Source: Bacteroidales bacterium
GTDB taxonomy: Bacteria; Bacteroidota; Bacteroidia; Bacteroidales; UBA10428
Length of the DNA: 64,000 nt
Direction: 5' to 3'
Assembly: GCA_016930375.1 (NCBI GenBank)
Contig: JAFGGU010000071.1
Location: forward strand, 1 to 64,000
The notes under the pieces are model-generated. The model had not been told where the DNA came from and searched no databases. It was given only the letters and a program-made list of their open reading frames with translations. Shown here piece by piece: positions 7,890-62,482 of the stretch (position 1 is the first letter of the stretch; each line of letters opens with the position of its first letter). A program made the translations under genes and the position numbers.

Positions 7890-7976
7890 CTATGTGTTTC
7901 AATATTGTACAAAATAGTCAGTAATTTATGGATATACATTATAACAAATAGTTGTATATTAACCCATTATTAGAAA

Positions 7977-7992: not shown

Positions 7993-8041
7993 AAATTTTG
8001 TTAAAAATAAAAATATCAATCACAGCAATATAGCAGTACCT

Positions 8042-9301: not shown

Positions 9302-9338
9302 AAACTAAGAATAATCTTCAATCCTAAAAACGCTCATT

Positions 9339-34582: not shown

Positions 34583-34610
34583 GTAGAGACGCAAGATTTT
34601 GCGTCTCTAC
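34583..34610. repeat. Perfect 12-bp-arm palindrome overlapping the hypD stop codon
   Basis: GTAGAGACGCAA GATT TTGCGTCTCTAC. Confidence 0.9.
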
Positions 34611-36021: not shown

Positions 36022-38286
36022 TCATTTTCTTCTCGCCGCAATCACCAGTTGGCCCAGCGCAATTCCCCCATCGTTGCAGGGAACCCGTGCATGGGTATAA
36101 ACCGTGAAATTATCCTTTACCAGTTTGTTTTCCAACAGTTCAGCCAGGTATTTGTTCTGAAAAGTGCCACCTGAAAGCACTATTTTCTGTATGCCTTTTT
36201 CATCCCTGATCTTTTGGGCCATGCGGAAAGAGGCTTCTGCGATCGTATTGTGAAATTTAGTAGCCACAATGCCCGGCGCCACGCCTGAAGAAATGTCGGC
36301 GCAAATTTGTCTGACAGCCGGTAAAACAGATACGGTTTCCGAGATTGTGAAATCATAATGCCCATGTATACCCGAAATCACATTGGATTCAAGCCTCATG
36401 GGAGCCTCAGCATGAAACCGGGCATGCAGGCATATGCCGCTTATGGCTGCCGTTGCGTCGAACAACCTGCCCATACCTGAACTGAGCTGGCAATGAATGC
36501 TCTTTTCGATGGCCGTTATGATCATCCGGATAATTGCGGGATCTGTTTGTTGTATGACAGGCAGGTCGAGACCCAGGATATCCTGTCCGAATGCCTGATA
36601 CAGCAACGATAAGCCCATTCTCCACGGTTCAGTGGCGGCTTTGTCCCCTCCGGGCATGGGCATATATTCAAAATGTCCCATCCGGATAAAATCTTTCAAA
36701 TCACAAACCAGGAACTCGCTTCCCCAGATATTTCCATCGCTACCATAGCCGGTACCATCAAAAGCCAGTCCGATTACCTGTTCATCAACTCCATTCTCAG
36801 CCATGCATGAGGCAATATGCGCATGGTGATGCTGCACTTCAATCCGTTTAATTCCAAGTTTTTGGGCGAAGCGTGTGGAAAGGTAATCGGGGTGCATGTC
36901 GGCTGCCACTGTATGTGGTTCAATCCTGAAAAGGTGCTTAAACCGTCCGAGTGTTTCCTCAAAGAATGTGAAGGTCTCCAGGTTTTTCAGATCCCCGATA
37001 TGCTGACTCAAATATGCCCTGTTGCCTTTCCCCAGGCAGAAGCAATTGGATAACTCGGCACCGGCAGCCAGGATTCCGTCCACATCAAACCCAAGTTTCA
37101 CCGGCACCGGGACGTACCCGCGTGAACGCCGGCTTATCCGCTCTTTAGCGCCAATTACACGAACCACCGAGTCATCGACTCTGTTAAAGATATCACGGTC
37201 GTATGTAATGACAGCGTCGGTCAATGACGCCAAAGTATGAAGGGCTGTAGGGTTGTCAATAATGATAGGTTCATCAGCCAGATTGCCGCTGGTAAGCACA
37301 ACAGCCGGAAGCCCCAGCCGGTCAAAAATCATATGATGCAATGGCATATAGGGCAGAAAGGCGCCCAGGGTATCCAGTCCAAGTGTTATTCCCGGGGCCA
37401 GAGGTTGAATTGTTTTCAGAATAACAATCGGCCTATGCCATGACAAGAGGGCTGCTTCTTCGGTCCCGGAGACTTCAGCGTACTGCTTTAGGCTGTCGAG
37501 GTCTTTGAACATAACGGCGAAAGGTTTACCCTCCCGCCTTTTCAGATGTCGAAGCCGGTTGACGGCCTCTTCATTCAATGCATCACAAGCGAGGTGGTAA
37601 CCACCAATCCCTTTTAAACCCAAAATCCCGCCGGAACGGACCAGAGAGATGATCCGATCCATTATCTCCGGCAGACCGGTAACAATCTCACTTCCAACCG
37701 TCATTGAATAAGCCGGGCCACAATGATTACAGGCCACCGGTTGCGCATGAAAGCGCCTGTCGTTGATATCTGTGTATTCGGCGTTACAAACCGGGCACAT
37801 ATCAAAGGTAGCCATGGTTGTATTCTTCCGGTCGTAAGGGAAATCACGGATAATTGAAAAGCGCGGTCCGCAGTTGGTGCAATTAATAAACGGATAGGCT
37901 ATCCGATGAGGCTGATGACTCATATCGTAAAGGCAATCGGGGCATACAGCGATATCCGGACTGATTTCCGAGGTTTCGCCGGTTAGGTCCTGGCTTGCCA
38001 GGATCTGAAATCCTGTAATGCCTTCGGGAATGTCCTGATCAATGGATATTTCTTCAATCTGAGCAACCACAGGTGCTTTATAACGCAAATCCTCCACAAA
38101 GAACGGCATATGCTTTGCCTGTCCTTCGATTTTCAGGGTAACTCCGTCGGTGCGGTTAACCACCCATCCATTCAAATGGTACTGTTTCGCCAGGCGGTAA
38201 ATGAAAGGTCTGAAACCCACACCCTGCACCAGTCCTTCAACATGTATGAGCAAGGCAATGATATGATCCTGTTCAGGGTTGAGCAA
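36022..38286 (-). CDS. hypF: Carbamoyltransferase HypF (TTG start)
   Basis: Acylphosphatase domain EGLVQGVGFRPFIYRLA; CPDCLYDM...CTNCGPRFSI zinc fingers; HHHAHIASCMAENG. Confidence 0.97.
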   Translation of the reverse strand: MLNPEQDHIIALLIHVEGLVQGVGFRPFIYRLAKQYHLNGWVVNRTDGVTLKIEGQAKHMPFFVEDLRYKAPVVAQIEEISIDQDIPEGITGFQILASQDLTGETSEISPDIAVCPDCLYDMSHQPHRIAYPFINCTNCGPRFSIIRDFPYDRKNTTMATFDMCPVCNAEYTDINDRRFHAQPVACNHCGPAYSMTVGSEIVTGLPEIMDRIISLVRSGGILGLKGIGGYHLACDALNEEAVNRLRHLKRREGKPFAVMFKDLDSLKQYAEVSGTEEAALLSWHRPIVILKTIQPLAPGITLGLDTLGAFLPYMPLHHMIFDRLGLPAVVLTSGNLADEPIIIDNPTALHTLASLTDAVITYDRDIFNRVDDSVVRVIGAKERISRRSRGYVPVPVKLGFDVDGILAAGAELSNCFCLGKGNRAYLSQHIGDLKNLETFTFFEETLGRFKHLFRIEPHTVAADMHPDYLSTRFAQKLGIKRIEVQHHHAHIASCMAENGVDEQVIGLAFDGTGYGSDGNIWGSEFLVCDLKDFIRMGHFEYMPMPGGDKAATEPWRMGLSLLYQAFGQDILGLDLPVIQQTDPAIIRMIITAIEKSIHCQLSSGMGRLFDATAAISGICLHARFHAEAPMRLESNVISGIHGHYDFTISETVSVLPAVRQICADISSGVAPGIVATKFHNTIAEASFRMAQKIRDEKGIQKIVLSGGTFQNKYLAELLENKLVKDNFTVYTHARVPCNDGGIALGQLVIAARRK

Positions 38287-38386
38287 TGTGAAAAAAATAA
38301 CAGTTGTTTCTGATAATCGTGTTAAAAGTATGAAAATAATGATTTATAAAAGTTAATTTTAACGTTTCGTAATGTTCGGACAAATC

Positions 38387-39004
38387 ATGAACACGAAGTT
38401 ACCACCGCGTACAGTCGAGAGATTGAGTAAGTACAGGCGCCTGCTCGATAAATACAAGGGCCTGGATGAAGCCCATATTTATTCCCATAAACTGGCAGGT
38501 TTGCTGAACCTGACTCCCGAACAGGTCAGGCGTGATCTTATGCTGATCGGCCTTACCGGCAACCACCGGAAAGGTTATAATATCAAAGCGCTCATCGGGA
38601 TAATTGGCAACACCATTGACCGGCAGGAAGGACAACAGGTTGCCCTGGTTGGCATTGGTAACCTGGGTAAAGCCGTGCTGGGTTTCATCCGGAAAGCAGA
38701 GACGAGGATGAACATTGTAGCCGCTTTTGATATTGACAGGAACAAAATCAATACCCACATTGCCCACGTGCCCTGTTTCGATATACAGGAGGCAAAACAG
38801 GTGATCAGGGAAAAGAATATCCGCATTGCCATTCTGACGGTTCCGCCTGAAGTTGCCGTGTCAACAACCACCCTGTTGCTTCAGTCGGGTATCCGTGGAA
38901 TCCTCAACTTTACATCGGTGCACCTGGATGTCTCACCAGATATTTATTTAAAGGATTATGATATCATCACATCGCTTGAAGAGATCGGGTTTTTTATCAA
39001 ATAG
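38387..39004 (+). CDS. rex: Redox-sensing transcriptional repressor Rex (copy 1; ORF opens at 38372)
   Basis: RLSKYRRLLDKY...LAGLLNLTPEQVRRDLMLIG; VALVGIGNLGKAVL Rossmann motif. Confidence 0.92.
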   Translation: MNTKLPPRTVERLSKYRRLLDKYKGLDEAHIYSHKLAGLLNLTPEQVRRDLMLIGLTGNHRKGYNIKALIGIIGNTIDRQEGQQVALVGIGNLGKAVLGFIRKAETRMNIVAAFDIDRNKINTHIAHVPCFDIQEAKQVIREKNIRIAILTVPPEVAVSTTTLLLQSGIRGILNFTSVHLDVSPDIYLKDYDIITSLEEIGFFIK

Positions 39005-40079
39005 CGGCCTGTTTCTTTTGCTTTTTGCTTTTCCGGCCAATCTTATGTCCCAGCATCTGGCTGCCTATCATGATAACCAGGGCAGGTTTTATATTTTCGA
39101 TAATGGCAGGTCCGTGCAGGCTGAATACCTGCCCGTGAAAAGTTTCAGTATTGGAGGTTCCTGTTTGTTGTATGCTGATAACCGGAATCGTTTGAAAATG
39201 TATTACAAAGGTGAAATTGAAGAACTTGAGGTGAATTCTGTAGATCATTTTGAAGCACTTGATTATCTATCAGTTTATAATATAGGAGGGGTTGTCAGAA
39301 TCATTGAAAATGGCAACCTTACTACTGTAAGTACGCATGCTGTGCAACTTCAGGCTGAAGACAGCCTGATCACCTTTTATGATGCAAGCCAGAAATTGCT
39401 TGCTGTTTATTACAAAGGTAAGATCCACATGCTGGAAGACGTACTGGCTGGCAGGAATGTTGTTTTGTTTACTTCGGGTGATAATATGGTGGCCTGGGTA
39501 TCTTCCGCCACCCGTGATTTGAAGGTATTCTACAAGGGCAAGACCTTGATACTCGAGCCGTTTTTATCAGGTGGCAAATTTTTGGCCGGAAAAGATATAC
39601 TGGCATGGGTTAACCAATCGGATATGAAGTTCAGGGTATTTTACGGGGGAGATGTATATCTGGCGGAAGAATTCCCTCCGGAATCCTGGCTGCCGGGTGA
39701 CGGTCTCATTGCCTATGTAGACAACACGGGATCATTCAAGGTTTTTGAGAACGGCAGGACGACAGATATAAGTTCCTTTCCGCCTGATTTCTATGAAGTC
39801 AGTAACCGGATGGTGATATACGGTGAACAGGGCTATTTCAAGGTTTGGTACAATAACAGGTCGTATACATTGGAGACACGAATCCCTGATAAATGGGAAG
39901 CGGATTGGAATACAGTCATATACCGTGATCTGAACAGGAATGTCAAGATCTTCAGCGGGGGTGAAACCAGGGTTTTAACCTATGACCTGGCCGAAGAGAT
40001 ACATTTGTACCGGGATATTGTTGTGGTGAATAAGGGAATGAACAACCACAATGTTTATTACAGAGGCAGGAAGTATTAA
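38958..40079 (+). CDS. Secreted repeat protein (WG-like/propeller-like), unknown function
   Basis: Signal-like LFLLLFAFPANLMSQ; repeats FYIFDNGR, LKMYYKGEI, LKVFYKGKT, FRVFYGGDV, FKVFENGRT, FKVWYNNRS, VKIFSGGET, HNVYYRGRK. Overlaps the rex 3' end by 47 bp. Confidence 0.75.
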   Translation: MISSHRLKRSGFLSNSGLFLLLFAFPANLMSQHLAAYHDNQGRFYIFDNGRSVQAEYLPVKSFSIGGSCLLYADNRNRLKMYYKGEIEELEVNSVDHFEALDYLSVYNIGGVVRIIENGNLTTVSTHAVQLQAEDSLITFYDASQKLLAVYYKGKIHMLEDVLAGRNVVLFTSGDNMVAWVSSATRDLKVFYKGKTLILEPFLSGGKFLAGKDILAWVNQSDMKFRVFYGGDVYLAEEFPPESWLPGDGLIAYVDNTGSFKVFENGRTTDISSFPPDFYEVSNRMVIYGEQGYFKVWYNNRSYTLETRIPDKWEADWNTVIYRDLNRNVKIFSGGETRVLTYDLAEEIHLYRDIVVVNKGMNNHNVYYRGRKY

Positions 40080-40103: not shown

Positions 40104-40706
40104 TCAGCTGAAATAGAAAAGGCTTTCAAGTTCATTCCGGATATTCACGTAATTGATAATAACATGATCCGGTACATGGAGCACCACCGGAGAAAAATTC
40201 AATATTCCCTTTATACCGGTGCTGACAAGCCTGTCACAAACCTCCTGTCCTGCCGCTTCAGGGACTGCAATGATGGCTGTTTTAATGTCATATTCTTTAA
40301 CTATATCAGCAATCTTTTCCACCGGGTAGACCGGAATTGAACTTTTCCGGTTATATTTTGACGGATCCAGATCAAATCCTGCCACAATTTTAATATGGCT
40401 TTCCTTGAAACCGATATAATTGATCAATGCCTGTCCGATATTGCCGAGTCCCACCAGGATCACCATGCGTTCCCCATCCTGTTTGAATAATCTGTTGATA
40501 GATTCCAGAACATATACAATATTATAGCCACCCCGCCTGCTGCCTTGAATGCAGGCCATGGAAAAATCCTTTCTGACCTGTTCAGGTTTGATCCTGGTTT
40601 CCAAACCCAGGGTATAGGAAAATACCCTGGTAAATCCGATCCGTTGAAGTTTGAGCAATACCAGGCGATACGTCAAGAACCTCTTTAAAACCCGCTGACT
40701 GATCAT
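40104..40706 (-). CDS. rex: Redox-sensing transcriptional repressor Rex (copy 2)
   Basis: RIKPEQVRKDFSMACIQGSRRGGYNI; MVILVGLGNIGQALINYIGF. Confidence 0.9.
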   Translation of the reverse strand: MISQRVLKRFLTYRLVLLKLQRIGFTRVFSYTLGLETRIKPEQVRKDFSMACIQGSRRGGYNIVYVLESINRLFKQDGERMVILVGLGNIGQALINYIGFKESHIKIVAGFDLDPSKYNRKSSIPVYPVEKIADIVKEYDIKTAIIAVPEAAGQEVCDRLVSTGIKGILNFSPVVLHVPDHVIINYVNIRNELESLFYFS

Positions 40707-40853: not shown

Positions 40854-41855
40854 ATGAGTGAGGTATTCCAGATCTCGCTTTCAGACTGGCATTTTTTTCT
40901 TGAAAAGCTTGCAGTTGAATGGGATGTTTTCGTGCCAGTCAAGATTAATCAATTTATTGATTATAAACTTTATAATAGTAATTATCCCATTCAATACAAC
41001 CAACCTCTTCCTGTCACTCCCTTGAAAACATTCTTCCTGCCATTTCAGGAAAACGTAGTTTTTAGCAGATCTTTTCACAATAAAAAACTTATTGTTGGTG
41101 TGCCCTCCTGTGACCTGCAAGCACTAAATCTCCTGGATGAAATTTATCTGGAAGAAACTTCCCCCGATCCAATATACAGGAAAAACAGAGAGAACACCGT
41201 GCTGATAGGAACTGACTGTCATACCATCAGGACAAGCTGCCACTGCATGTCTTATGGGATTGAACCTTTCCCTACTGCGAATGCCGATCTGAACCTGGTT
41301 AGCCTGAATGACAGCATCCTTCTTACAGTTTATACTTCCAAGGGGGAGGCATTAATCAAACAATACCCTGAGTATTTTAAAAACGTATTACCTGATAAGG
41401 AAAAACTGGAGCTGGCGGAAAACCGGCGTTCTGCCACCCTCAGAATGCTTGAAGAACAGAATCCTGATCTGCCCGATTACTCAACCACAGGTGATTTGGT
41501 CTTGCACGCCGGAGAAGAGATTTGGCAAAAATATGCAAGAACCTGTGTTTCCTGTGGAGCTTGTGCCACCATTTGTCCTACGTGCACCTGCTTTCTGCTG
41601 ATCGATCGGCCTGATTTTGAAAAAGTAAGGCAGGTGGATGCCTGCCAGTATCCGGGATTTGAGAAAATTGCAGCAGGAGAGGATCCGCTGCATCGGAAAT
41701 CTGTGAGATTCAAGAATCGGTATCTCTGCAAATATGTATGGAAACCTGAAAGGTTCAAATCTATTGCCTGCACCGGATGCGGGCGATGTATCGATGGTTG
41801 TATCGGAAAGATTAATAAGAATGAAATATTCCTGGAACTATCACAACAAGCCTGA
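40854..41855 (+). CDS. Sulfhydrogenase beta-type (HydB/AsrA-like) 4Fe-4S subunit
   Basis: CVSCGACATICPTCTCF and CTGCGRCIDGCIGK clusters; VGVPSCDLQALNLLD. Confidence 0.85.
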   Translation: MSEVFQISLSDWHFFLEKLAVEWDVFVPVKINQFIDYKLYNSNYPIQYNQPLPVTPLKTFFLPFQENVVFSRSFHNKKLIVGVPSCDLQALNLLDEIYLEETSPDPIYRKNRENTVLIGTDCHTIRTSCHCMSYGIEPFPTANADLNLVSLNDSILLTVYTSKGEALIKQYPEYFKNVLPDKEKLELAENRRSATLRMLEEQNPDLPDYSTTGDLVLHAGEEIWQKYARTCVSCGACATICPTCTCFLLIDRPDFEKVRQVDACQYPGFEKIAAGEDPLHRKSVRFKNRYLCKYVWKPERFKSIACTGCGRCIDGCIGKINKNEIFLELSQQA

Positions 41856-42690
41856 CAAACGAATCATGCTGGAGACCGAGAACATATACCGCCCCATCAG
41901 GGCCACCGTGGAAGAGGTCATTGATGAATCGCCCCTCATCAAGTCCTTTGTCCTTATCCCGGAAACTGAATTTCACTTCAAAACCGGCGAGTTCATAGAG
42001 TTAACCATCGACGGTTATGGAGAAGCTCCTTTTACACCTTCTTCCTCACCCCTGGAAAGTCATAAAATTGAGGTTACTGTGATGAAAGCAGGTTATGTCA
42101 CAGAGAAAATCCATGCCCTTATGAAAGGCGACCTGGTGGGAATCCGGGGCCCCTTTGGAAGAGGTTACCCGCTGGACAGGTTTTATGGTCATGAAGTGTT
42201 GATACTTGGCGGAGGATGCGGTTTTGCGCCCATCCGTTCGTTATTATTCAACCTGATGGCTGAAAAAGAGAAGTTTATAAAGGTAATTCTGTGCTACGGT
42301 GCCAAATCACCAGAGGACTGCATCTATAAACCCTTTGTTGACCAACTTCGCAAGGTGGAAAAGTTCGAGGTTTACCGGAGTGTGGACAAGGCAGATGCTA
42401 CCTGGAGCGAAAAAGAAGGCGTTGTTACCAAACTTCTGGATGATATCAGGATTGATGTGCAGCAGTCTGTAGCCATCGTGTGCGGTCCGCCGGTAATGAT
42501 GAAATACGGTACATTTAGACTGCTTGAAATGGGATATCCTGCATCAGACATATACCTTTCCATGGAAAAGAACATGTCCTGCGGCATGGGAAAATGCGGA
42601 CATTGCATGATGGGAAAATATTACGTCTGTAAGGATGGTCCTGTTTTCACCTATGAGGAAATAAAAGAACAACCTGATATCTGGGTATAA
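41821..42690 (+). CDS. Sulfhydrogenase gamma-type (HydG/AsrB-like) FAD/NAD(P)-binding subunit (alternative start 41866)
   Basis: FNR-type fold; LGGGCGFAPIRSLLFNL; C-terminal 2Fe-2S CGMGKCGHCMMGKYYVCKDGP. Confidence 0.88.
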   Translation: MKYSWNYHNKPDKRIMLETENIYRPIRATVEEVIDESPLIKSFVLIPETEFHFKTGEFIELTIDGYGEAPFTPSSSPLESHKIEVTVMKAGYVTEKIHALMKGDLVGIRGPFGRGYPLDRFYGHEVLILGGGCGFAPIRSLLFNLMAEKEKFIKVILCYGAKSPEDCIYKPFVDQLRKVEKFEVYRSVDKADATWSEKEGVVTKLLDDIRIDVQQSVAIVCGPPVMMKYGTFRLLEMGYPASDIYLSMEKNMSCGMGKCGHCMMGKYYVCKDGPVFTYEEIKEQPDIWV

Positions 42691-42695
42691 GGCTC

Positions 42696-43166
42696 ATGGC
42701 TAAGAAACTGCTCATCGATTTTAATAAGCTGAGAAGTATGAAAGACTTCCCTGCTGAAGGCATTCTGAAGACGGACAATTACACCCTTTCCTTCAAATCG
42801 ATCCGGGAACTGGCCACTTTCATGTTCACCTGCCGCCATTGTGAACAAGCTCCCTGTATCGATTCCTGTCCGGTGAACGCACTGGAAAAGAACCCGGAAG
42901 GCGTTATCACACGTGCCATGTTAAAATGCATTCGTTGTAAATCCTGTATCGTCATATGTCCCTTTGGAACCATGATGGATGATCTTTTCGCAGTCAGGAA
43001 TTCCGGCCGGAAATTTATCTCTGTCAGGAATGGCAATGATCTTCAGGACTTTGCAGCGTGTTTTCCGGCAGATGTGGTGAGCCTGGTGGACATGGATGAA
43101 GATCCTGCCAATCACATATTCCGGCTCAGTGACGATATCCTGGTGAGTGAATTTACGTGGGAATAA
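42696..43166 (+). CDS. 4Fe-4S ferredoxin-type (HycB/CooF-like) subunit
   Basis: CRHCEQAPCIDSCPVNAL; CIRCKSCIVICPFG. Confidence 0.88.
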   Translation: MAKKLLIDFNKLRSMKDFPAEGILKTDNYTLSFKSIRELATFMFTCRHCEQAPCIDSCPVNALEKNPEGVITRAMLKCIRCKSCIVICPFGTMMDDLFAVRNSGRKFISVRNGNDLQDFAACFPADVVSLVDMDEDPANHIFRLSDDILVSEFTWE

Positions 43167-43167
43167 A

Positions 43168-44100
43168 ATGGCAAAAGACCTCTTATATTATCTGATCTTC
43201 CCCGGATTCCTGTTCACGGCTCTGGTGGGGGCAATTTTCAGCTGGATCGACCGAAAGGTAACCGCCTGGGTTCAGTTCAGGAAAGGTCCTCCTTTCCTGC
43301 AGCCGTTCTATGACTTTTTCAAGCTTCTGTTGGTAAAGGAAACCATTTTGCCGGCCAGAGGCTCGAAAATGACCTTTCTGTTTGCCCCCTTACTGGGTCT
43401 TACCGGTGCCGCACTTGCAAGTATGCTGATCCTGCTCCCGGCAATTGGTACCAAACCGGGTTTTAACGGTGATATCATCGTCATCTTTTACATCCTTACT
43501 ATACCTTCCCTGACCTACATCATAGGAGCCCTGGCTGCAGGAAATCCCCTGGCATCAGTTGGAGCATCCAGGGAAATGAAACTGATCATCAGCTATGAAC
43601 TTACTTTCCTGCTGATTCTGGCGGCCATCATCATGAAAGCCGGAATGACGATCACGATTCACGAAATACTAGCTGTTCAGACTGATGAAGGTGCTTTTAT
43701 CGGCAGCATTTCCGGAATATTGCTCTTCATAGCCTTTGTCTTTTGCATTCAGGCCAAACTGGGCCTTGTTCCCTTTGATATGGCGGAAGCGGAAACTGAA
43801 ATTAATCACGGATCCTTTATTGAATATTCTGGCCAGGCTTACGCTTTGATCAGACTGACCAGATACATGATGCTTTTCATATTACCAGCTTTCCTGTGTA
43901 CTGTTTTACTGGGTGGACTCAGAACCGATGGCATTCACCTGTTATGGACCGTATTAAAAACCCTGGGGATTTTACTTGTTTTAACACTCATCAGAAACAC
44001 CAACCCCAGAGTAAGAATTGATCAGGCCATGCGGTTTTTCTTTATCTGGATGAACTTGCTGGTCATTGCGGCGATCATATTGGACTATTTTAATCTTTAA
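43168..44100 (+). CDS. NuoH-like membrane subunit of group 4 hydrogenase
   Basis: FSWIDRKVTAWVQFRKGPPFLQPFYDFFKLLLVKE; MAEAETEINHGSFIEYSG. Confidence 0.92.
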   Translation: MAKDLLYYLIFPGFLFTALVGAIFSWIDRKVTAWVQFRKGPPFLQPFYDFFKLLLVKETILPARGSKMTFLFAPLLGLTGAALASMLILLPAIGTKPGFNGDIIVIFYILTIPSLTYIIGALAAGNPLASVGASREMKLIISYELTFLLILAAIIMKAGMTITIHEILAVQTDEGAFIGSISGILLFIAFVFCIQAKLGLVPFDMAEAETEINHGSFIEYSGQAYALIRLTRYMMLFILPAFLCTVLLGGLRTDGIHLLWTVLKTLGILLVLTLIRNTNPRVRIDQAMRFFFIWMNLLVIAAIILDYFNL

Positions 44101-44111
44101 ACATTCACCAT

Positions 44112-44552
44112 TTGGGCTTTAAGGATTATTGCTTCAGGAAATCACTCTGGGTGTTCCATTTTGGCGGAGCCTCATGCAACAATTGCGACATCGAGATCCT
44201 CGATTGTCTGACCCCGCGTTATGATATTGAGCGATTCGGTATGGTGCTCGTGGGAAGCATCCGGCATGCGGATGTGCTGCTGGTGAATGGTTCGATCAAT
44301 CAAAAAGATAAGATAAGATTGCTGGAACTATACTCCCAGGCACCCAAACCCATATTGGTGGTGGCCATTGGGGCCTGCGGATGCACGGGAGGTATTTTTG
44401 CAGAAGGGAACACCTTCGCCGGACCAGTTGATAAGATTATTCCCGTGGATGCTTATGTTCCCGGATGTCCTCCCAAGCCCGAAGCCATCATTGGGGGTAT
44501 CGTAAGACTGATTGAAAAAACAAAAAAAGCTACCCGTGATGAAGCTACCTGA
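44112..44552 (+). CDS. NuoB-like small subunit of group 4 [NiFe] hydrogenase (TTG start)
   Basis: FHFGGASCNNCDIEILD; GACGCTGGIF; VPGCPPKPEAI. Confidence 0.92.
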   Translation: MGFKDYCFRKSLWVFHFGGASCNNCDIEILDCLTPRYDIERFGMVLVGSIRHADVLLVNGSINQKDKIRLLELYSQAPKPILVVAIGACGCTGGIFAEGNTFAGPVDKIIPVDAYVPGCPPKPEAIIGGIVRLIEKTKKATRDEAT

Positions 44553-44988
44553 TATCGAGCGGCTTGAGCAGCAATTTGAACAGGAGGTTCTTGACGTCAG
44601 CATCAGGAACATGAAAAGGGCCACAGTTACCATAGGTCCTGATCACCTGGTAGCTTTCAGTCAGTTTCTATACAGGGAATTGCATTTCAGGTTCATCATT
44701 GCTTCTGCAATGGAAACTTCTCGGGGTATTGAGATCCTGTATCATTTCAGTCGTGATCCTGCTGGTCTGATCCTGAACCTGCTCGTGATACTGGATAAGG
44801 AAAAGCCGGAAATCGAATCGCTCACCGGCTTGTTTGAAGCTGCCAACTGGATCGAAAGGGAGATGCATGAGATTATCGGGATCCATTTCAAAAATCATCC
44901 CAATCTTGAAAAATTGATTTCGGAGGGTAATTGGGCGGAAGGGGTTTATCCCTATAGGAAAAGTGAAAAAGGGACAGGTGAAAAATGA
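44539..44988 (+). CDS. NuoC-like subunit
   Basis: WIEREMHEIIGIHFKNHPNLEKLI; overlaps the preceding gene. Confidence 0.88.
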   Translation: MKLPDIERLEQQFEQEVLDVSIRNMKRATVTIGPDHLVAFSQFLYRELHFRFIIASAMETSRGIEILYHFSRDPAGLILNLLVILDKEKPEIESLTGLFEAANWIEREMHEIIGIHFKNHPNLEKLISEGNWAEGVYPYRKSEKGTGEK

Positions 44989-45005
44989 AAAGTGAACCAT
45001 CAACC

Positions 45006-46190
45006 ATGAACAAAATTATTCCCATAGGTCCATATCATCCGTTGCAGGAAGAACCTGAACTTTTCAAGCTCTACTGTGAAGGAGAAATTGTCAAGGATAT
45101 TAAATGGGAAACCGGATATAATCATCGTGGCATCGAAAAGTTAAGTGAGTCAAAAACCTTTGACCAGGTTTTTTTCCTAGTGGAAAGGGTTTGTGGTATT
45201 TGCTCCACCTCGCATCCCTTTGCTTTTGCCAATTGCATGGAAGAGATCGCCGATATTGAAGTACCTGACAGGGCCAAATATATCCGGTCGATCATTGGAG
45301 AATTGGAAAGAATCCATAGCCATTTGTTATGGCTTGGACTTGCCGGTCATTTTCTGGGGTATAACACGGTTTTCATGTGGGTATGGAAGTATAGGGAGCC
45401 TGTGCTGGACCTTTTTGAAATGATTACCGGTAATCGAAACAGTTATGCCATGTTTAAAATTGGCGGCGTACGCAGGGATATAGAAAACAGCAAAATCCCA
45501 AAAATTAAGGAGACCCTTGACTTCTTAAAGAAAAAGATTGACATGCTGGTCGGTGCTATAATGGACGACCCTGTTATTCATGCCCGTACCAAAGGTGTAG
45601 GGATACTTACACAGGAGGATATCATTAATTACGCTGCTGTAGGGCCAACTGCAAGAGCATCGGGTGTTGAGATTGATGTTAGGCACGATGATCCTTACGC
45701 GGCTTATCCACTTGTTAACTGGAAAGTGATAACAGCCAAAGGAGGTGATGTTTTTGCTAAAACCGAGGTCAGGCTTCTTGAAATACTTGAATCTATATAC
45801 ATAATTGAACAATGTCTGGAAGGGCTTAAAAAAGAAAATGAGGGTGATATAGAAGTTTTGGTAAAGGAAATTCCTGAAGGTGTAGGTACGGGCCGTGCAG
45901 AAGCACCACGCGGGGAGGTATTCCATTTCGTAAAAACCGATGGATCGAACTACCCGGTAAGGCATAAAATAAGAGCTCCCAGCTATGTGAATATAGCCAC
46001 CTTCAGAAAGGCCTGCATTGGGCAGACAATCTCTGATGCCACCATTTCTCTGGCTGCAGTTGACCCATGTTATTGTTGTACGGAGAGAATGGCCTGCGCA
46101 TATGACCTTCATACCGGTGAAAGAATCTTGGATGGAAAAGGACTTATTGACCTGTCACAGCATGTGACTGATACGTTAATAAAACTGTAA
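45006..46190 (+). CDS. Group 4 [NiFe] hydrogenase large subunit (NuoD-like with intact Ni ligands)
   Basis: L1 ERVCGICSTSHPFAF and L2 DPCYCCTERMAC. Confidence 0.93.
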   Translation: MNKIIPIGPYHPLQEEPELFKLYCEGEIVKDIKWETGYNHRGIEKLSESKTFDQVFFLVERVCGICSTSHPFAFANCMEEIADIEVPDRAKYIRSIIGELERIHSHLLWLGLAGHFLGYNTVFMWVWKYREPVLDLFEMITGNRNSYAMFKIGGVRRDIENSKIPKIKETLDFLKKKIDMLVGAIMDDPVIHARTKGVGILTQEDIINYAAVGPTARASGVEIDVRHDDPYAAYPLVNWKVITAKGGDVFAKTEVRLLEILESIYIIEQCLEGLKKENEGDIEVLVKEIPEGVGTGRAEAPRGEVFHFVKTDGSNYPVRHKIRAPSYVNIATFRKACIGQTISDATISLAAVDPCYCCTERMACAYDLHTGERILDGKGLIDLSQHVTDTLIKL

Positions 46191-46194
46191 CCGT

Positions 46195-48090
46195 ATGGAA
46201 GACAACCTGACATCAATCACTTTGGGTCATGCCTTACTGTTTACGGTAATCATACCGGCAATTGCCGGCCTTGTACTTTTTGCCCTGCCTAAAAAATCAA
46301 ATCGGATAAAAGACATCCTGACAATTGCAATTACCGTACTTTCATGCTTTGCTGCATTTAAGCTATATGCATCAGTTCAACAGGCAGTATTGGTGGGATA
46401 TTGCAGCATCATACTGCAACCATTCAAAGCCTGGTTTCAAATACCGGCTGAGTGTGCCCAATACCTGACATTGAATGTAGATGCCATGGCCCGTCTGATC
46501 ATTTTACTGGTCGCCGGATTCAGCCTGTTGATCAGCATTTATGCAACTGGTTATCATCATGCAGAAAAAAAACCGAAGCACTTTCATTCCCTGTTGCTGC
46601 TCACGCTGGCTGCCTCATCAGCAGCAATATTTGCAGATAACCTCATGGTTTTGATCGTTTTCTGGGGATTCCTGGGCTTTACCTTATATGCTATGTTATC
46701 ACCTGATGATGAGCAATCCTCTGCCGCCGCCAAAAAAACCCTGATCCTGATCGGAGCATCAGACGGATTGATGATACTGGGCATCGCAATAATCGGGAAA
46801 ATAGCAGGAACTTTCAGCATGGCATTGCTGGATCTTTCAACCACCAATGCGCTCACGGTAATTGCATTTTTATGTCTGGCCATTGGCGCCTTTACCAAAG
46901 CCGGAGCCTTTCCTTTTCATACCTGGATCCCGGACTATACACAAACTGCAACAGCTCCTGCATCCGCTTACCTGCCTGCCGCGCTGGACAAACTACTGGG
47001 CATTTATTTCCTCACCAGGATATGCCACGATGTATTTCAGATCAGCGGAGGTATCCGGCTTACTATACTGTGCCTGGGAGCGCTAACCATTATCATTGCC
47101 GTAATGATGGCCCTCATCCAGCACAATTACAAGAGACTGCTGGGTTACCACGCTGTATCACAAGTAGGTTATATGATTACCGGTATCGGTCTGGGATCAG
47201 TTCTGGGTATTGCCGGAGGACTTTTCCACATGATAAATAATGCGGTATATAAGTCCGGATTATTCCTGGCTGCCGGATGTGTTAAGAGCGCTACCGGCAA
47301 GGATGACCTTGAAGAGCTGGGAGGGCTGAGCAAGGCCATGCCCGTTACCTTTATCTGCAGCCTGATCTTCGCCCTTTCGATATCGGGCGTACCTCCGCTC
47401 AATGGCTTTGCATCCAAATGGATGATTTACCAGGGGATTATTGATTTGGGTAAAGGTACCGGCCCCGAAAACCATTTGTGGATGGTATGGCTGGCCATGG
47501 CAGTCATTGGATCAGCGCTTACACTGGCCAGCTTTGTCAAGTTCATTTCCGGGATCTTTCTGGGAAGACAAAAACCGGCATTAGGAACCATACAGGAGGT
47601 AAATCCCCTCATGTGGGCTCCCATGTTGTTACTTGCGCTCATTTGTATAGGTTTTGGAACGTTTGCCACCAATTGGGTAATACCCTCAATGCTTGAACCC
47701 ATTACAGGAAATATTCACTATTCCGGGCTGTGGAATTCATCCTTGATTACTCTTCTGATAGGCATCTCATTATTGCTTGGAATACTATTCTATGTTATTG
47801 CCACCTCCGGAAAGTTGCGCGTCGCTGAGAGTTTTATCGGAGGAGAGACCAACAGGGATGAAACGGGATTTGAACCGGTATCTTTTTACGAGACTATTAG
47901 GAATTCCTTACTCTTCAAACCGTTTTATGCATGGGCAGAAAAAAAATATTTTGATGTTTATGAATTGTCCAAAAAACTTGTACTGGATGTGAGCGACCTG
48001 TTCAGCAAAGCACATACGGGTATTCTTTCCAATCTGGCTTTCTGGGTACTGGCAGGCCTCATTTTCATGTTTCTTTTTCTTTTACTCTAA
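46195..48090 (+). CDS. Proton-translocating NuoL/MrpA/MrpD-like antiporter subunit
   Basis: GAFTKAGAFPFHTWIPDYTQTATAPASAYL; polytopic, 631 aa. Confidence 0.92.
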   Translation: MEDNLTSITLGHALLFTVIIPAIAGLVLFALPKKSNRIKDILTIAITVLSCFAAFKLYASVQQAVLVGYCSIILQPFKAWFQIPAECAQYLTLNVDAMARLIILLVAGFSLLISIYATGYHHAEKKPKHFHSLLLLTLAASSAAIFADNLMVLIVFWGFLGFTLYAMLSPDDEQSSAAAKKTLILIGASDGLMILGIAIIGKIAGTFSMALLDLSTTNALTVIAFLCLAIGAFTKAGAFPFHTWIPDYTQTATAPASAYLPAALDKLLGIYFLTRICHDVFQISGGIRLTILCLGALTIIIAVMMALIQHNYKRLLGYHAVSQVGYMITGIGLGSVLGIAGGLFHMINNAVYKSGLFLAAGCVKSATGKDDLEELGGLSKAMPVTFICSLIFALSISGVPPLNGFASKWMIYQGIIDLGKGTGPENHLWMVWLAMAVIGSALTLASFVKFISGIFLGRQKPALGTIQEVNPLMWAPMLLLALICIGFGTFATNWVIPSMLEPITGNIHYSGLWNSSLITLLIGISLLLGILFYVIATSGKLRVAESFIGGETNRDETGFEPVSFYETIRNSLLFKPFYAWAEKKYFDVYELSKKLVLDVSDLFSKAHTGILSNLAFWVLAGLIFMFLFLLL

Positions 48091-48101
48091 ATCAGCAATC
48101 C

Positions 48102-48659
48102 ATGGAAATAATTCTGTCTATACTGCTAATCTTCATGATAATAGGCGCCATTTATGCTCTCTTTGCCAAGGACCTTCTGTCCGCGCTGATTTCCTGTGGA
48201 ATTGTCGGGTATGGCCTGGTGATCTGCTTTCTGCTGCTAAGGGCTCCTGATCTTGCCATTGTGCAGGTCGTAGTTGAAACAATCACCCTCATCATTATGG
48301 TGGCGGTGGTGCTCGACAGTACACGGGAAGATCTGAAGGAGCGAATCATGATCCGTGAAAAGGAAAGCTCATACATTAATACAAAGTACGTTTTCAATGT
48401 ACTAACCGTGCTGGTCCTTGCCTTATTCTTCCTGTTCTTTTTCAACCAGGCCATTGATAAACTTGAGCCCTTCGGCACCCATACCACCCGGATGGCGGAA
48501 GCTTATATTGAAAATGGAGCCCGGGTTACAGGAAGTGCAAACCTGGTCACAGGCGTTGTTTTTGATTTCAGGGGTTATGATACACTGGGTGAAGCAACCA
48601 TACTGTTTACAGCGGTGGTGGGCATCCTGGCCATTTTAAGACTAAGGGGGAAGACCTGA
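48102..48659 (+). CDS. MbhD/MbhE-like (DUF4040 + MrpA C-terminal-like) subunit
   Basis: RAPDLAIVQVVVETITLIIMVAVV; FDFRGYDTLGEATILFTAVVGIL. Confidence 0.85.
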   Translation: MEIILSILLIFMIIGAIYALFAKDLLSALISCGIVGYGLVICFLLLRAPDLAIVQVVVETITLIIMVAVVLDSTREDLKERIMIREKESSYINTKYVFNVLTVLVLALFFLFFFNQAIDKLEPFGTHTTRMAEAYIENGARVTGSANLVTGVVFDFRGYDTLGEATILFTAVVGILAILRLRGKT

Positions 48660-48700
48660 GCCATGCAAGATCAGTTGGTAAATCGAAAAAAAGAACCGAA

Positions 48701-49138
48701 ATGAAAGGAATGTCGATCATCGTAAAAAAAGTCAGTCAGCTGATCGCCGGCATCATCTTCCTGTACGGCATTTATATTGTGCTTCACGGTCATCTTACAC
48801 CGGGCGGAGGTTTTGCCGGTGGTGCGATTCTCGCAGGAGCATTCATCCTGATCGTTCTGGCTTTTGGTACAGATATCATACATCTGAAACACGACGAGGA
48901 AAGGGCTTCCTTGTTTGAAGGACTGGGACTGCTTGCCTTCATTCTGCTGGCCATTCTTGGTTTTATAATTGGGATTAAGGTTTTTTTCAACAATTATCTC
49001 CCCAAAGGTCAACTGGGAGAATTGGTAAGTGCAGGGTTGATACCCCTGTATAATATTGCTGTGGGCATAGAAGTTTGCGCTGCTCTGTTTACGATTTTTC
49101 TTGCTTTGGTAATTTATAAAGAGGAGATCTCAAAATGA
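48701..49138 (+). CDS. MrpB/MnhB-like subunit
   Basis: GHLTPGGGFAGGAILAGAF. Confidence 0.9.
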   Translation: MKGMSIIVKKVSQLIAGIIFLYGIYIVLHGHLTPGGGFAGGAILAGAFILIVLAFGTDIIHLKHDEERASLFEGLGLLAFILLAILGFIIGIKVFFNNYLPKGQLGELVSAGLIPLYNIAVGIEVCAALFTIFLALVIYKEEISK

Positions 49139-49473
49139 TCGTCTATATCCTTTGTTTCATCTTGTTCCTGGTTGGCCTTTTTGGTGTGCTGACGAGCCGA
49201 AATATCATCAAGATCATAATAGGGCTTACCTTCCTGGAAATCAGTATCAATCTCTTTCTGGTCCTGATCGGATATGTAGAGGGTGGTCAGATACCGATTT
49301 TGGTAAAGGGCTCCGAAAACCTGCATTTTGTTGATCCCTTGCCACAAGCGCTGGTACTCACATCCATCGTAATTGGCCTGTCAACCAACGCCATGTTGCT
49401 GGCTGTTGCCATCAGGATTTATAAGAAGTTCAAGACTTTTGACATCCGAAAAATCCGGAGCCTTAAAGGATAA
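49135..49473 (+). CDS. MrpC/MnhC (NuoK-like) subunit
   Basis: FLEISINLFLVLIGYV; DPLPQALVLTSIVIGLSTNAMLLAVAIR. Confidence 0.92.
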   Translation: MIVYILCFILFLVGLFGVLTSRNIIKIIIGLTFLEISINLFLVLIGYVEGGQIPILVKGSENLHFVDPLPQALVLTSIVIGLSTNAMLLAVAIRIYKKFKTFDIRKIRSLKG

Positions 49474-49477
49474 TATA

Positions 49478-51016
49478 ATGTACAAACTCATACCCCTGCC
49501 GGTTATCCTGCCACTGGTCGCCGCGTTCCTGATCGCCATTGTCGGGAAAAGGTTCAAAAGATTGGCAAAGATACTATCCGTTTTGGTATTCCTTTCCACA
49601 GCGGTCCTAAGTTACTGGTACATGGTTGCCGGAAATCAGGAAACCATGCTTTACAAGATTGGTGGCTGGGAACCAATCAACGATATTCCCATTGGGGTTT
49701 ATATGCTCCTGGATCCGTTCAGCGGATTTATGCTGTGCATCATCAACACGATTGCTCTCCTTTCAACTGTATATTCCGTCAATTACATTACTAAATTCAC
49801 AGGCGTAAACTATTTCTATACCCTGCTGAGCATCATGGTTGCCGGATTAAACGGAGTGGTTCTTGCCGGAGACCTTTTTAATCTATATGTCTTTCTGGAA
49901 ATTACAGTCATTTCCTCTTATGCGCTGGTGGCATTCGGGACCGATAAAGAGGAGCTCGAAGCCTCACTCAAGTACCAGGTGCTGGGGGGAATTGCCACAT
50001 CCCTGATCCTATTCAGTATCGGGATGATCTACTGGTATACCAAAACACTCAATATGATGGACATAACCAGAGTCCTTCATGCCAGCGGCGATGTGAAACT
50101 TATCCAGTTCTGCCAGCTAATGTTGATTGCAGGCTTCGGACTGAAAGCGGCCATCATGCCTTTCCATGGCTGGCTGCCTGATGCCCACTCGAGTGCACCC
50201 TCTCCCATATCCGCCATGTTGTCGGGTGTTGTCATTAAAGCTGCCGGTTTATATGTGATCTTCAGACTGTTTTTCAATATGTTTGAACTCAATTTCGAGA
50301 TCAGTGTTTTGATAACGGCCATCGGTACCTTATCGATGGTGGTAGGCGTATTTCTGGCCATCGGTCAATGGGATCTGAAAAGACTGCTGGCTTATCACAG
50401 CATCAGCCAGATGGGTTACGTCATTATTGGTGTGGGTATGGGTATGATTATCCTTTCCAGGCAAGGTAGCCTGGCAGCAGCATCGTTAGCCATAACTGGC
50501 GGACTTTTTCATCTGGTTAATCATGCCGTATTTAAGGGACTGCTTTTCCTGAATGCCGGGGCCATTGAGTACAGGTTGGGCACAAGAGACCTGAAAAAGA
50601 TGGGCGGTCTGGCAGAAAAAATGCCCCTCACCGCGGCTACATCACTGGGCGCATCCATGGCCATTTCCGGTATACCTCCCTTCAATGGTTTTTTCAGTAA
50701 ACTGATCATCATCATTGCAGCCATTCAGGCCAGGTTTTATATACTGGCGGCACTTGCAGTGCTTGTCAGTATCATTACCCTTGCCTCCTTTATGAAATTT
50801 CAGCGGTATGCCTTCTTCAACGGAAAAATTTCAGCCAGCCGGGTGAATATCTCAGAAGTTCCTCCTTTCATGGCGTTTTCAATGACGATTATGGCCTTGC
50901 TGTGTCTGGCCCTCAGCCTGCTATTGATCCCTGACCTGCGGGAGCATGTCCTCCAACCGGCCGTGGATATTCTTACCGGCAGAAATGCATATTTTATTAA
51001 CCTGCTAAACAAATAG
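49478..51016 (+). CDS. MrpD/MnhD (NuoN/M-like) antiporter subunit
   Basis: AAIMPFHGWLPDAHSSAPSPISAMLSGVVIKAAGLYV; ORF track start 49373 overlaps the previous gene. Confidence 0.92.
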   Translation: MYKLIPLPVILPLVAAFLIAIVGKRFKRLAKILSVLVFLSTAVLSYWYMVAGNQETMLYKIGGWEPINDIPIGVYMLLDPFSGFMLCIINTIALLSTVYSVNYITKFTGVNYFYTLLSIMVAGLNGVVLAGDLFNLYVFLEITVISSYALVAFGTDKEELEASLKYQVLGGIATSLILFSIGMIYWYTKTLNMMDITRVLHASGDVKLIQFCQLMLIAGFGLKAAIMPFHGWLPDAHSSAPSPISAMLSGVVIKAAGLYVIFRLFFNMFELNFEISVLITAIGTLSMVVGVFLAIGQWDLKRLLAYHSISQMGYVIIGVGMGMIILSRQGSLAAASLAITGGLFHLVNHAVFKGLLFLNAGAIEYRLGTRDLKKMGGLAEKMPLTAATSLGASMAISGIPPFNGFFSKLIIIIAAIQARFYILAALAVLVSIITLASFMKFQRYAFFNGKISASRVNISEVPPFMAFSMTIMALLCLALSLLLIPDLREHVLQPAVDILTGRNAYFINLLNK

Positions 51017-51017
51017 C

Positions 51018-51503
51018 ATGAAACACGTTGCCCTCTTTATCATTTTACTGGGTCTGTGGTTGCTGCTGACCTTGAACCTGAGGACAGCCAACATGCTTGC
51101 CGGTATAACTGCCGCCCTGGTAACCACCCTGTTTTTTGGCCGGTATTTCGTAACCGGTATCAGAAAGTTTCTGGAACCCATGCGGTACCTGTGGTTATTA
51201 GTTTTTCTGGTCATCTTTATCTGGGAATGCCTGAAAGCAAATTTCGATGTGGCCTACCGGGTTATTCACCCGAAGATGCCCATAAGGCCAGGAATTATTA
51301 AGGTGAAGCTGGATCTCAAATCGGATTTTGCCAAAGTTATGCTTGCCAATTCAATAACCATGACACCAGGTACCCTGTCTGTTGATCTTATCGGTGATAT
51401 ATTGTATGTACACTGGATATATGTTCGAACATCTGATCCGGAAAAATATTCAGAATTTATAACCAGCAAATTTGAAAAATATATCAAACGAATCTTTGAT
51501 TAA
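51018..51503 (+). CDS. MrpE/MnhE subunit
   Basis: Position and motif LANSITMTPGTLSVDLIGDILYVHWI. Confidence 0.92.
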   Translation: MKHVALFIILLGLWLLLTLNLRTANMLAGITAALVTTLFFGRYFVTGIRKFLEPMRYLWLLVFLVIFIWECLKANFDVAYRVIHPKMPIRPGIIKVKLDLKSDFAKVMLANSITMTPGTLSVDLIGDILYVHWIYVRTSDPEKYSEFITSKFEKYIKRIFD

Positions 51504-51513
51504 TTCTTATCCC

Positions 51514-51780
51514 ATGGACCAATACCTTATAATATTGTTATATATCCAGATCGCCCTGTGCTTTTTTTGCCTGGTACGGATCATCAGGGGACCTACAATA
51601 CCCGACCGGATGGTTGGCATTGACATTTTCGGGATTCTGGTAGTGGGGATCTGTGTGATCCTGGCCGTTCTTACCAACAGGATGTTCATCATCGACATCG
51701 GTATCGCCTGGGTCATTTTAAGTTTCATTGGCACATTAACATTGGCAAAATATTTGGGAGGGAAGAAATTAAATGAATGA
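51514..51780 (+). CDS. MrpF/MnhF subunit
   Basis: RIIRGPTIPDRMVGIDIFGI; IDIGIAWVILSFIGTLTLAKYL. Confidence 0.9.
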   Translation: MDQYLIILLYIQIALCFFCLVRIIRGPTIPDRMVGIDIFGILVVGICVILAVLTNRMFIIDIGIAWVILSFIGTLTLAKYLGGKKLNE

Positions 51781-52129
51781 AATACTTTTTAAAGTGCTTT
51801 TAACCATTGGCGTCGTGTTTAACCTTTTTGGATGCATTGGGCTTCTCCGCCTTCCCGACGTCTACAACCGGCTGCAGGCAGCCACCAAATGCGTCACGCT
51901 TGGAACCTGCAGTATTTTATTAAGTCTGATTTTCCGGTTTGGATTCACTGAGGCTGGTATTAAAGCGTTATTAGGTATTCCGCTTCTTTTCTTTGCAGCT
52001 ACTGTTGCAGCGCATGCCCTGGTAAGGGGCTCCTATCATTTCGGTGTAAAAATGGGCGATCAAAGTGTCATCGATGAATATGCGGATCATAAGCAAGAAT
52101 CATCGCAAAAGGAACCTAAAGAAGATTAG
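51773..52129 (+). CDS. MrpG/MnhG subunit
   Basis: FNLFGCIGLLRLPDVYNRLQAATKCVTLG; PLLFFAATVAAHALVRGSY. Confidence 0.9.
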   Translation: MNEILFKVLLTIGVVFNLFGCIGLLRLPDVYNRLQAATKCVTLGTCSILLSLIFRFGFTEAGIKALLGIPLLFFAATVAAHALVRGSYHFGVKMGDQSVIDEYADHKQESSQKEPKED

Positions 52130-52130
52130 C

Positions 52131-52739
52131 ATGATATACCCAAAAATAAGAGAAATCCGTGAGGCCTTGATTTCTTTGTTTACAAAAGCATATACCACCT
52201 CATTTCCGGCAAAACCTCACATACCTTATCAACACTATCGTGGTAAGCCTGTTGTGTTTGATGAGCATTGCGTTGGCTGTGAAACATGTGCCAATGTATG
52301 CCCCTCACATGCCATTACTTTTACCGATGATATAGAAAAAGGTATACGGATTATTGAAAGAAACTATGGCCTTTGCCTGTTTTGCGGGCAATGCCAGGAA
52401 CACTGCATCACACAACAGGGGGTAAGGCTGAGTGATCAGATATACGATATGGCCACCTTTGACAGGAAAAATCTGATTGAGCGGCAGGAAAAGGAATTGT
52501 TGCTCTGTAAAAGTTGTGGCAAGGTTATTACCACCAGGGATCACTTTCGCTACCTTCATGAGAAATTGGGCCCTTCTGCCTATGCCTCTATTCTGAATCT
52601 GAACCTGTTGAACGAACGGTTGAAATTGGCTGACCGGGAATCTGTCTCCATCGAAGTTGTGGACGAATTAAAACGCAAGGATATGTTCAACGTCCTGTGT
52701 CCTGATTGTCTCAGAAAATCACTCTTAAAATCATTGTAA
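52131..52739 (+). CDS. NuoI/HycF-like 2x[4Fe-4S] subunit with C-terminal CxxC pairs
   Basis: CVGCETCANVCPSHAI; CLFCGQCQEHCIT; then LLCKSCGKV...VLCPDCLRK. Confidence 0.88.
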   Translation: MIYPKIREIREALISLFTKAYTTSFPAKPHIPYQHYRGKPVVFDEHCVGCETCANVCPSHAITFTDDIEKGIRIIERNYGLCLFCGQCQEHCITQQGVRLSDQIYDMATFDRKNLIERQEKELLLCKSCGKVITTRDHFRYLHEKLGPSAYASILNLNLLNERLKLADRESVSIEVVDELKRKDMFNVLCPDCLRKSLLKSL

Positions 52740-52742
52740 GAA

Positions 52743-53219
52743 GTGCTCTGCAAGCTTTTAAAAAACACTGTCCATGCAGGTAAGACCATCGTTCTTGTTG
52801 GACTTGGAAATGTTCTCCGGCACGATGACGGAGTAGGTGTTTACCTTGCTCAAAATATTCATCCGGGATTCAATATCCATGTTATCAACGTTGAGGCCAG
52901 CATTGAAAACTATATTGGAAAAATCAATTCTTACTTACCTGACCTGCTGATACTGATGGACTGTGTTTTCTATAACCGGAAACCCGGTTATAGCAGGTTA
53001 TCACCGGTTACTGATCTTATCGGTTATACAACAAACACGCACAATATTGCTCTTAAAAATATAAGCAACCTGTTCACCGCTCAGACTTTTATCCTGGGTA
53101 TTCAACCTGACAATGTGTCTTTGGGTGAAGGGCTTTCAACACCGGTTTTAAAGAAAGCAGAACACCTTGTCCAAAAAATCAATTCCTGTTTTCTTGCAAA
53201 TAATTCATCCTTGTTGTAA
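52743..53219 (+). CDS. Hydrogenase maturation protease (HycI/HyaD-like)
   Basis: VLVGLGNVLRHDDGVGVYLAQ; ILMDCVFYN; THNIALKN. Confidence 0.85.
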   Translation: MLCKLLKNTVHAGKTIVLVGLGNVLRHDDGVGVYLAQNIHPGFNIHVINVEASIENYIGKINSYLPDLLILMDCVFYNRKPGYSRLSPVTDLIGYTTNTHNIALKNISNLFTAQTFILGIQPDNVSLGEGLSTPVLKKAEHLVQKINSCFLANNSSLL

Positions 53220-53958: not shown

Positions 53959-53976
53959 TTGTGAATTAATTAACAA
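53959..53976. promoter_or_regulatory. Rex operator upstream of hox operon
   Basis: TTGTGAATTAATTAACAA; one mismatch to TTGTGAANNNNTTCACAA. Confidence 0.75.
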
Positions 53977-55869: not shown

Positions 55870-55881
55870 AGAATTTTCATC

Positions 55882-56595: not shown

Positions 56596-56607
56596 AGACC
56601 ATATTCC

Positions 56608-57156: not shown

Positions 57157-57167
57157 TTCAGAAAATT

Positions 57168-61652: not shown

Positions 61653-61669
61653 GGTGAACCGTTTTGAAA

Positions 61670-62479: not shown

Positions 62480-62482
62480 ATT

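Follow-up and report, generated by a model that had tools for sequence, protein, structure and literature searches.

The 64,000-nucleotide stretch analyzed here (the window) comes from the metagenome-assembled genome of a sediment-type Bacteroidales bacterium (genome G000, 4.0 Mb, 85% complete). Between positions 40854 and 53219 it carries a single run of plus-strand genes, whose neighbors overlap or sit a few bases apart in the open reading frame (ORF) listing and which together encode a membrane-linked group 4 [NiFe] hydrogenase core, Mrp-type subunits, and putative electron-input subunits resembling AsrA, AsrB and CooF (Table 1). A sequence-only reading of this DNA had proposed this gene set and order, with two NuoL/N-like antiporter subunits, a maturation protease, and intact nickel ligands in the large subunit. 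We assigned protein families with Pfam and NCBIfam models and solved relatives through PDB matches, which recovered all of the named genes on the plus strand. Proton_antipo_M was matched twice in the operon, the protease is of the HycI type, and both ligand motifs are present, so that the subunit make-up is clear at the level of sequence. The likely starts of asrB, nuoH, mnhD, mnhF and nuoI were revised to the positions in the table.

Table 1. Features of the hydrogenase operon, its predicted regulation and its surroundings, in window coordinates.
Feature	Coordinates	Strand	Evidence or remark
asrA/hydB-like Fe-S subunit	40854..41855	+	ShyB 145, HydB 124, AsrA 114 bits, all below curated cut-offs
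asrB/hydG-like FAD/NAD(P)/[2Fe-2S] subunit	41866..42690	+	HydG/AsrB models, NAD_binding_1, FAD_binding_6, DHODB Fe-S
cooF/hycB-like 2x[4Fe-4S] linker	42696..43166	+	Pfam/NCBIfam
nuoH/mbhM-like membrane anchor	43168..44100	+	PF00146 (NADHdh) 2.4e-63
nuoB/mbhJ-like small subunit	44112..44552	+	PF01058 (Oxidored_q6) 4.4e-31
nuoC/mbhK-like subunit	44512..44988	+	PF00329 (Complex1_30kDa) 3.9e-22
Hydrogenase large subunit (nuoD/mbhL-like)	44985..46190	+	Complex1_49kDa + NiFeSe_Hases
nuoL/hycC-like antiporter subunit, C-terminal extension	46195..48090	+	PF00361 (Proton_antipo_M) 6e-51
Fused mbhD-mbhE	48102..48659	+	PF13244 + PF20501
mnhB/mbhF-like	48701..49138	+	PF04039
mnhC/mbhG-like	49135..49473	+	PF00420 (Oxidored_q2)
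mnhD/mbhH-like antiporter subunit	49478..51016	+	PF00361 (Proton_antipo_M) 9.6e-65
mnhE/mbhA-like	51018..51503	+	PF01899 (MNHE)
mnhF/mbhB-like	51514..51780	+	PF04066 (MrpF)
mnhG/mbhC-like	51773..52129	+	PF03334
nuoI/hycF/mbhN-like 2x[4Fe-4S] subunit, extra CxxC pairs	52131..52739	+	HycF-like model 103 bits
hycI-type maturation protease	52743..53219	+	TIGR00072 79 bits, above cut-off
Predicted Rex operator TTGTGAAAAAATGCACAA	40833..40850		13/14 match, 3 nt before asrA start
Second predicted Rex operator	53959-53976		13/14 match, before soluble hydrogenase operon
rex2, NADH/NAD+-sensing repressor Rex	40104..40706	-	NCBIfam Rex equivalog 205 bits (cut-off 138)
Further rex paralogue	38372-39004		Above Rex model cut-off
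10-bladed beta-propeller gene	38958-40079		Between both rex genes
hypF maturation factor	36022..38286	-	TIGR00143 750 bits
hypD	34607-35686		PF01924; next after hypF
Zinc-ribbon-like protein, 141 residues	53251-53676		Between both hydrogenase operons
Soluble NAD-linked hydrogenase operon	54067-59095		Fused hoxE-hoxF, hoxU, hoxY, hoxH, protease-like ORF
2-oxoacid:ferredoxin oxidoreductase genes	61110-63574	-	gamma-, beta-, alpha-type

The large subunit carries the NiFe ligand motifs RVCGIC and DPCYCC. Neither CxxC motif is lost in any of 80 relatives, a set of Bacteroidales loci retrieved through this subunit. Beyond the last motif lies a C-terminal tail of ~33 residues, as expected for a substrate of the neighboring HycI-type protease. 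Its best PDB matches are MbhL (6cfw_L, 284 bits) and HycE (7z0s_E, 264 bits), with the best complex I NuoD match below both at 205 bits. A model of the NuoL-like subunit has HycC as its top structural match (7z0s_C; template modeling (TM) scores 0.79/0.82), with Mbs (6u8y_X) also similar, and 12 of 12 cysteines of the NuoI-like subunit are invariant among 57 relatives. No [NiFe] large subunit beyond the two within the window was found in the 85% complete genome. In a Bacteroidota scan for the large subunit, all loci read beyond the window and one divergent locus (L119) were without the NiFe ligands.

The three genes at the 5′ end of the operon encode its putative electron-input side. AsrA retains 16 of 16 cysteines among 66 relatives, and its best PDB match, by sequence, is the beta subunit of Pyrococcus furiosus soluble hydrogenase I (SHI; 9nez_B). 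The eight cluster cysteines of CooF are invariant among 74 relatives, as are, among 71, the flavin adenine dinucleotide (FAD) motif PFTPSSS, the dinucleotide motif GGGCG(F/L)AP and the four [2Fe-2S] cysteines of AsrB. A structural model of AsrB (mean predicted local distance difference test score 86) gives a TM score of 0.90 against the NADPH-bound gamma subunit of SHI (9nf0_C). AsrB has R-x-V-D (x mostly T or S) in 71 of 71 relatives, where the aligned SHI sequence reads S-V-T-R; this is the loop in which ferredoxin-NADP+ reductase-type enzymes meet the 2′-phosphate. An AsrB paralogue from the same order of bacteria (L130), which is 39% identical, also has T-V-D and adjoins HdrA/HdrB/VhuD-like genes, the arrangement of Flx-Hdr NADH modules. 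As a separate observation, CooF has two cluster motifs in the window and four in one relative (L122:11098-11583), and the outer clusters seem dispensable.

In every one of the 69 Bacteroidales loci whose flanking sequence is long enough, the asrA-asrB-cooF genes lie directly 5′ of nuoH (in two of these loci a contig end falls inside asrB), with median gaps in relatives of 6 nucleotides (nt) between asrA and asrB, 9 nt between asrB and cooF, and −10 nt between cooF and nuoH. The same order is kept through nuoI, and followed by a protease-sized ORF, at L119 (genome G268), a divergent Bacteroidota locus outside the class whose large subunit and AsrA are 59% and 31% identical to those of the window. 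Among 295 Bacteroidales genomes sampled for co-occurrence, 18 have the large subunit (at least 74% identity), and 17 of these have the AsrB orthologue (at least 65% identity), compared with none of the 277 genomes without the hydrogenase, in which the nearest AsrB relatives show 37-41% identity. In the eighteenth genome (G409) a contig end cuts asrB; in G509, asrB and nuoD are on different contigs, split at contig ends inside nuoH; and the operon fragment at L068 is flanked on both sides by N gaps. These apparent exceptions are assembly effects. The sequence-only reading had named a separate transcription unit for the beta/gamma genes as a result that would refute it, and synteny, spacing and co-occurrence reject such a unit. 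Conservation of the operon extends to dozens of Bacteroidales species; judged by the constancy of the gene unit, the asrAB-cooF part of the operon belongs to the hydrogenase complex. A mirror-tree correlation of AsrB with NuoD (0.86) is uninformative on this point because neighboring control genes correlate about equally well (hypF 0.83, rex2 0.81).

Two variations on the gene order were also observed. At L122, 5.3 kb of unrelated co-directional genes (4861-10001) lie between nuoH and nuoB with asrAB-cooF-nuoH intact, as either a real insertion or an assembly error. Approximately one-fifth to one-third of relatives (L024, L017, L027, L061 and others) carry a gene for a ~151-residue protein between asrB and cooF, which is absent from the window; one copy, when tested, matched the cyclic-nucleotide-binding domain PF00027 and no other domain, making an allosteric subunit possible.

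The operon is also predicted to be under redox control. The rex2 gene is divergent from the hydrogenase operon, and is adjacent and divergent in most relatives. We scored operators against TTGTGAAN4TTCACAA over 14 positions, with 12 or more matches taken as a good site. The window holds exactly two 13/14 matches, one before asrA and one before the soluble hydrogenase operon, where 0.1 sites of at least 12 are expected. A site of at least 12/14 is conserved upstream of asrA in 47 of the 53 relatives with an adjacent rex, compared with 1% of shuffles, the surveyed loci being related to one another and their operator counts not independent. The typical relative has one operator ~20 nt and another ~205 nt upstream of asrA. 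Rex leaves DNA at high NADH, and the operon is therefore a predicted member of the Rex regulon that would be switched on as NADH builds up. The signal read by Rex is the NADH/NAD+ ratio (PMC6391272). This predicted control by an NADH sensor, together with the invariant aspartate of AsrB, leaves us leaning toward NADH as the preferred cofactor. Promoter and terminator scans gave scores not clearly above shuffled sequence, and Rfam returned no RNA element at gathering scores, its weak sub-threshold matches resembling chance.

Our preferred reading, to which we assign a probability of roughly 60%, is that the operon encodes a reversible, ion-translocating NAD(H):H2 oxidoreductase. We infer the physical assembly, direction, ion and cofactor preference of such a complex as follows. 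NADH would reduce the FAD and [2Fe-2S] cluster of AsrB, from which electrons would pass through the [4Fe-4S] clusters of AsrA, CooF and the NuoI-like and NuoB-like subunits to the NiFe site in NuoD, along a path that would be reversible throughout. NuoH would couple the redox step to the movement of ions in the NuoL-like, MrpD-like and MrpB/C/E/F/G parts. At a high NADH/NAD+ ratio, NADH could thereby be disposed of as H2, with the ion gradient driving the uphill reaction; at low H2 the complex would run near equilibrium; and a reverse run on H2 would conserve energy. Pumping would thus be expected mainly in H2 oxidation, and also if NADPH or ferredoxin feeds in.

The energetics bear on the direction of pumping. 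At in vivo potentials of −280 mV for NADH, −380 mV for NADPH and −500 mV for ferredoxin (PMC9304861), and −414 mV for H2, H2 formation from NADH costs 3 kJ/mol at 10 Pa H2, 9 kJ/mol at 100 Pa and 14 kJ/mol at 1000 Pa, and at 1 Pa it releases only 3 kJ/mol. The same reaction releases 16-22 kJ/mol from NADPH at 10-1 Pa H2, and 39-45 kJ/mol from ferredoxin. For NADH, this implies that ~1 ion would be spent per H2 at hundreds of Pa, or that pumping would take place during H2 oxidation. Of the earlier proposal of an ion pump running from NAD(P)H to H2, the single unit of Mbh-like core, Mrp subunits and 3b/Asr-type NAD(P) subunits stands, whereas H2 evolution from NADH yields no energy for pumping beyond a marginal amount at ~1 Pa H2 and should therefore consume the ion gradient or make little use of it. 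Given the predicted induction at high NADH, the simplest role is a gradient-assisted disposal of NADH as H2 that is reversible at need, and H2 disposal of NADH is most likely the physiological role.

Several points weigh against an NADH-linked complex. The preference for NADH stands on one residue plus regulation, and Rex governs many fermentative genes, so its predicted control is no proof of NADH as substrate. Four relatives (L007, L035, L036 and L079) are without an adjacent rex and without a good operator. In addition, the coupling would be short-circuited if the soluble NAD-linked hydrogenase encoded directly downstream used NADH at the same time.

The best-surviving alternative, which we consider possible though rather unlikely, is a two-donor complex in which, as in Pyrococcus Mbh, the NuoI/CooF side still accepts electrons from reduced ferredoxin, and part of the electrons exchange with NAD(P) through AsrAB, with no flavin-based confurcation. 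This would explain the kept pump, as ferredoxin to H2 is the only route clearly exergonic at all H2 levels, and it agrees with a core closest to the ferredoxin-linked Mbh and with the 2-oxoacid:ferredoxin oxidoreductase genes nearby. However, by analogy with CooF/HycB-type complexes, CooF and AsrA would be expected to occupy the ferredoxin docking side, and ferredoxin is already handled by Rnf and an [FeFe] hydrogenase locus with a HydB-like subunit. The genome has RnfC above cut-off and this [FeFe] locus, and no further [NiFe] large subunit was found in it; therefore ferredoxin has other outlets. Less probable still is an NADPH-specific forward pump, in which, at low H2, NADPH would power both the evolution of H2 and the outward pumping of ions. 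Among solved structures AsrB is closest to SHI, an NADPH enzyme, and the −16 to −22 kJ/mol available at 10 to 1 Pa H2 is enough for ~1 ion, but the invariant aspartate aligned with the SVTR of SHI in 71 of 71 relatives and the predicted control by an NADH sensor both argue against it. We regard as highly improbable the sequence-only suggestion of an electron-confurcating complex that forms H2 from ferredoxin and NADH with ion pumping. Although BfuABC-Mbh complexes of this type have been predicted in Dehalococcoides (PMC9304861), AsrB is the single flavoprotein of the operon, which has no BfuB/NuoF/HydB- or NfnL-like subunit; a gap of 390 nt separates the downstream HoxEF from the gene before it, and HoxEF has a predicted Rex operator of its own and is found behind the operon in close relatives only; and the separate [FeFe] locus and Rnf serve ferredoxin in this genome. 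A membrane sulfhydrogenase whose AsrAB part reduces sulfur or sulfite is equally improbable despite the homology to AsrA/AsrB and sulfhydrogenase beta/gamma subunits, with no AsrC siroheme subunit among the operon proteins by Pfam/NCBIfam and scores far under the equivalog cut-offs for HydB/HydG, AsrA (114 against 323 bits) and AsrB (195 against 289 bits), and an identity as the anaerobic sulfite reductase AsrABC is ruled out on the same AsrA, AsrB and AsrC results.

The surroundings of the operon include further hydrogenase-related genes. The two rex paralogues lie within 2.4 kb of each other, and the one farther from the operon is divergent from hypF. The zinc-ribbon-like protein between both hydrogenase operons is kept in the close relatives L001, L005 and L006. 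HoxH of the soluble hydrogenase operon has an NAD-reducing hydrogenase as its best PDB match (5xf9_D, 527 bits). Elsewhere in the genome, a second complex I-like locus (L082, G000:C37:82926-83993) encodes a 504-residue fused C/D-type protein that lacks both NiFe motifs, and is probably an Ehr-type, non-hydrogenase complex.

If the NAD(H):H2 oxidoreductase reading is true, a single complex would connect NADH with H2 and the ion gradient in these Bacteroidales, with neither ferredoxin nor quinone involved. This would bear on what drives NADH-dependent H2 production in low-energy anaerobic communities and on the role of undefined bacterial Mrp-linked group 4 hydrogenases, and would mean that complex I-like machines can exchange their input module. 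We tentatively suggest, at somewhat less than even odds, that the operon defines a distinct class of respiratory complex, a Rex-controlled NADH:proton oxidoreductase for gradient-driven H2 release, or energy conservation in reverse, in anaerobic Bacteroidales. With similar reserve, this class might be described as a complex I in which NuoEFG is swapped for AsrAB-CooF and quinone for protons. One carrier of the operon, Labilibacter sediminis CG51 (L035), is cultured, which makes the reading testable.

Each part of the operon has counterparts in known systems. P. furiosus Mbh (group 4d, PDB 6cfw) shares the NuoB/C/D/H/I-like core with NiFe ligands, MbhD/E and the Mrp-type subunits, but uses ferredoxin, has one antiporter subunit and is without the AsrA/AsrB/CooF module; the operon in the window has a fused MbhD-MbhE and an added NuoL/HycC-like subunit. 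An identity as archaeal ferredoxin-only Mbh is ruled out, as asrAB-cooF and the second antiporter subunit are constant parts. Among solved structures, AsrA and AsrB are best matched by the beta and gamma subunits of SHI (PDB 9nez/9nf0), but SHI is soluble and has a group 3b alpha subunit; the HydA (group 3b alpha) model reaches 23 bits on the operon against a cut-off of 880, which rules out a group 3b sulfhydrogenase. The Hdr/Flx-type locus L130 likewise has an AsrA/AsrB-like pair serving another acceptor complex, with Hdr-type partners and no hydrogenase genes among those read. HydDB group 4g hydrogenases of Cloacimonadota and Omnitrophota are also bacterial, Mrp-linked and of group 4, but ferredoxin coupling is assumed for them and no NAD module described (PMC8542988; PMC5037454), and group 4g is polyphyletic (PMC11291895). 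The sequence-only reading had not seen the combination named, and this holds only in part. Dehalococcoides Mbh-Bfu (PMC9304861) also interleaves group 4 hydrogenase genes with an NAD-linked flavin module, although that module is the bifurcating, NuoE/F/G-like BfuABC rather than an AsrAB-like one with one FAD, and the missing BfuB/NuoF-like subunit rules out this identity. The only report of asrA/asrB/cooF with Mrp found in the open-access literature is the Saganbacteria RX5A region (PMC6349859, 2019), where these three genes accompany genes for Mrp-like subunits and a group 4 hydrogenase and for which the authors propose an oxidoreductase module. That region also holds a molybdopterin oxidoreductase, and the main text names relatives in Zixibacteria and Omnitrophica and does not claim that the system is NAD(H)-linked, regulated or widely conserved (PMC6349859). 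The same literature yielded no account of this operon in Bacteroidales, of how constant it is or of its predicted control by Rex. The parts of the operon are therefore known separately, and what is newly recognized is its conservation in Bacteroidales and its predicted Rex operator.

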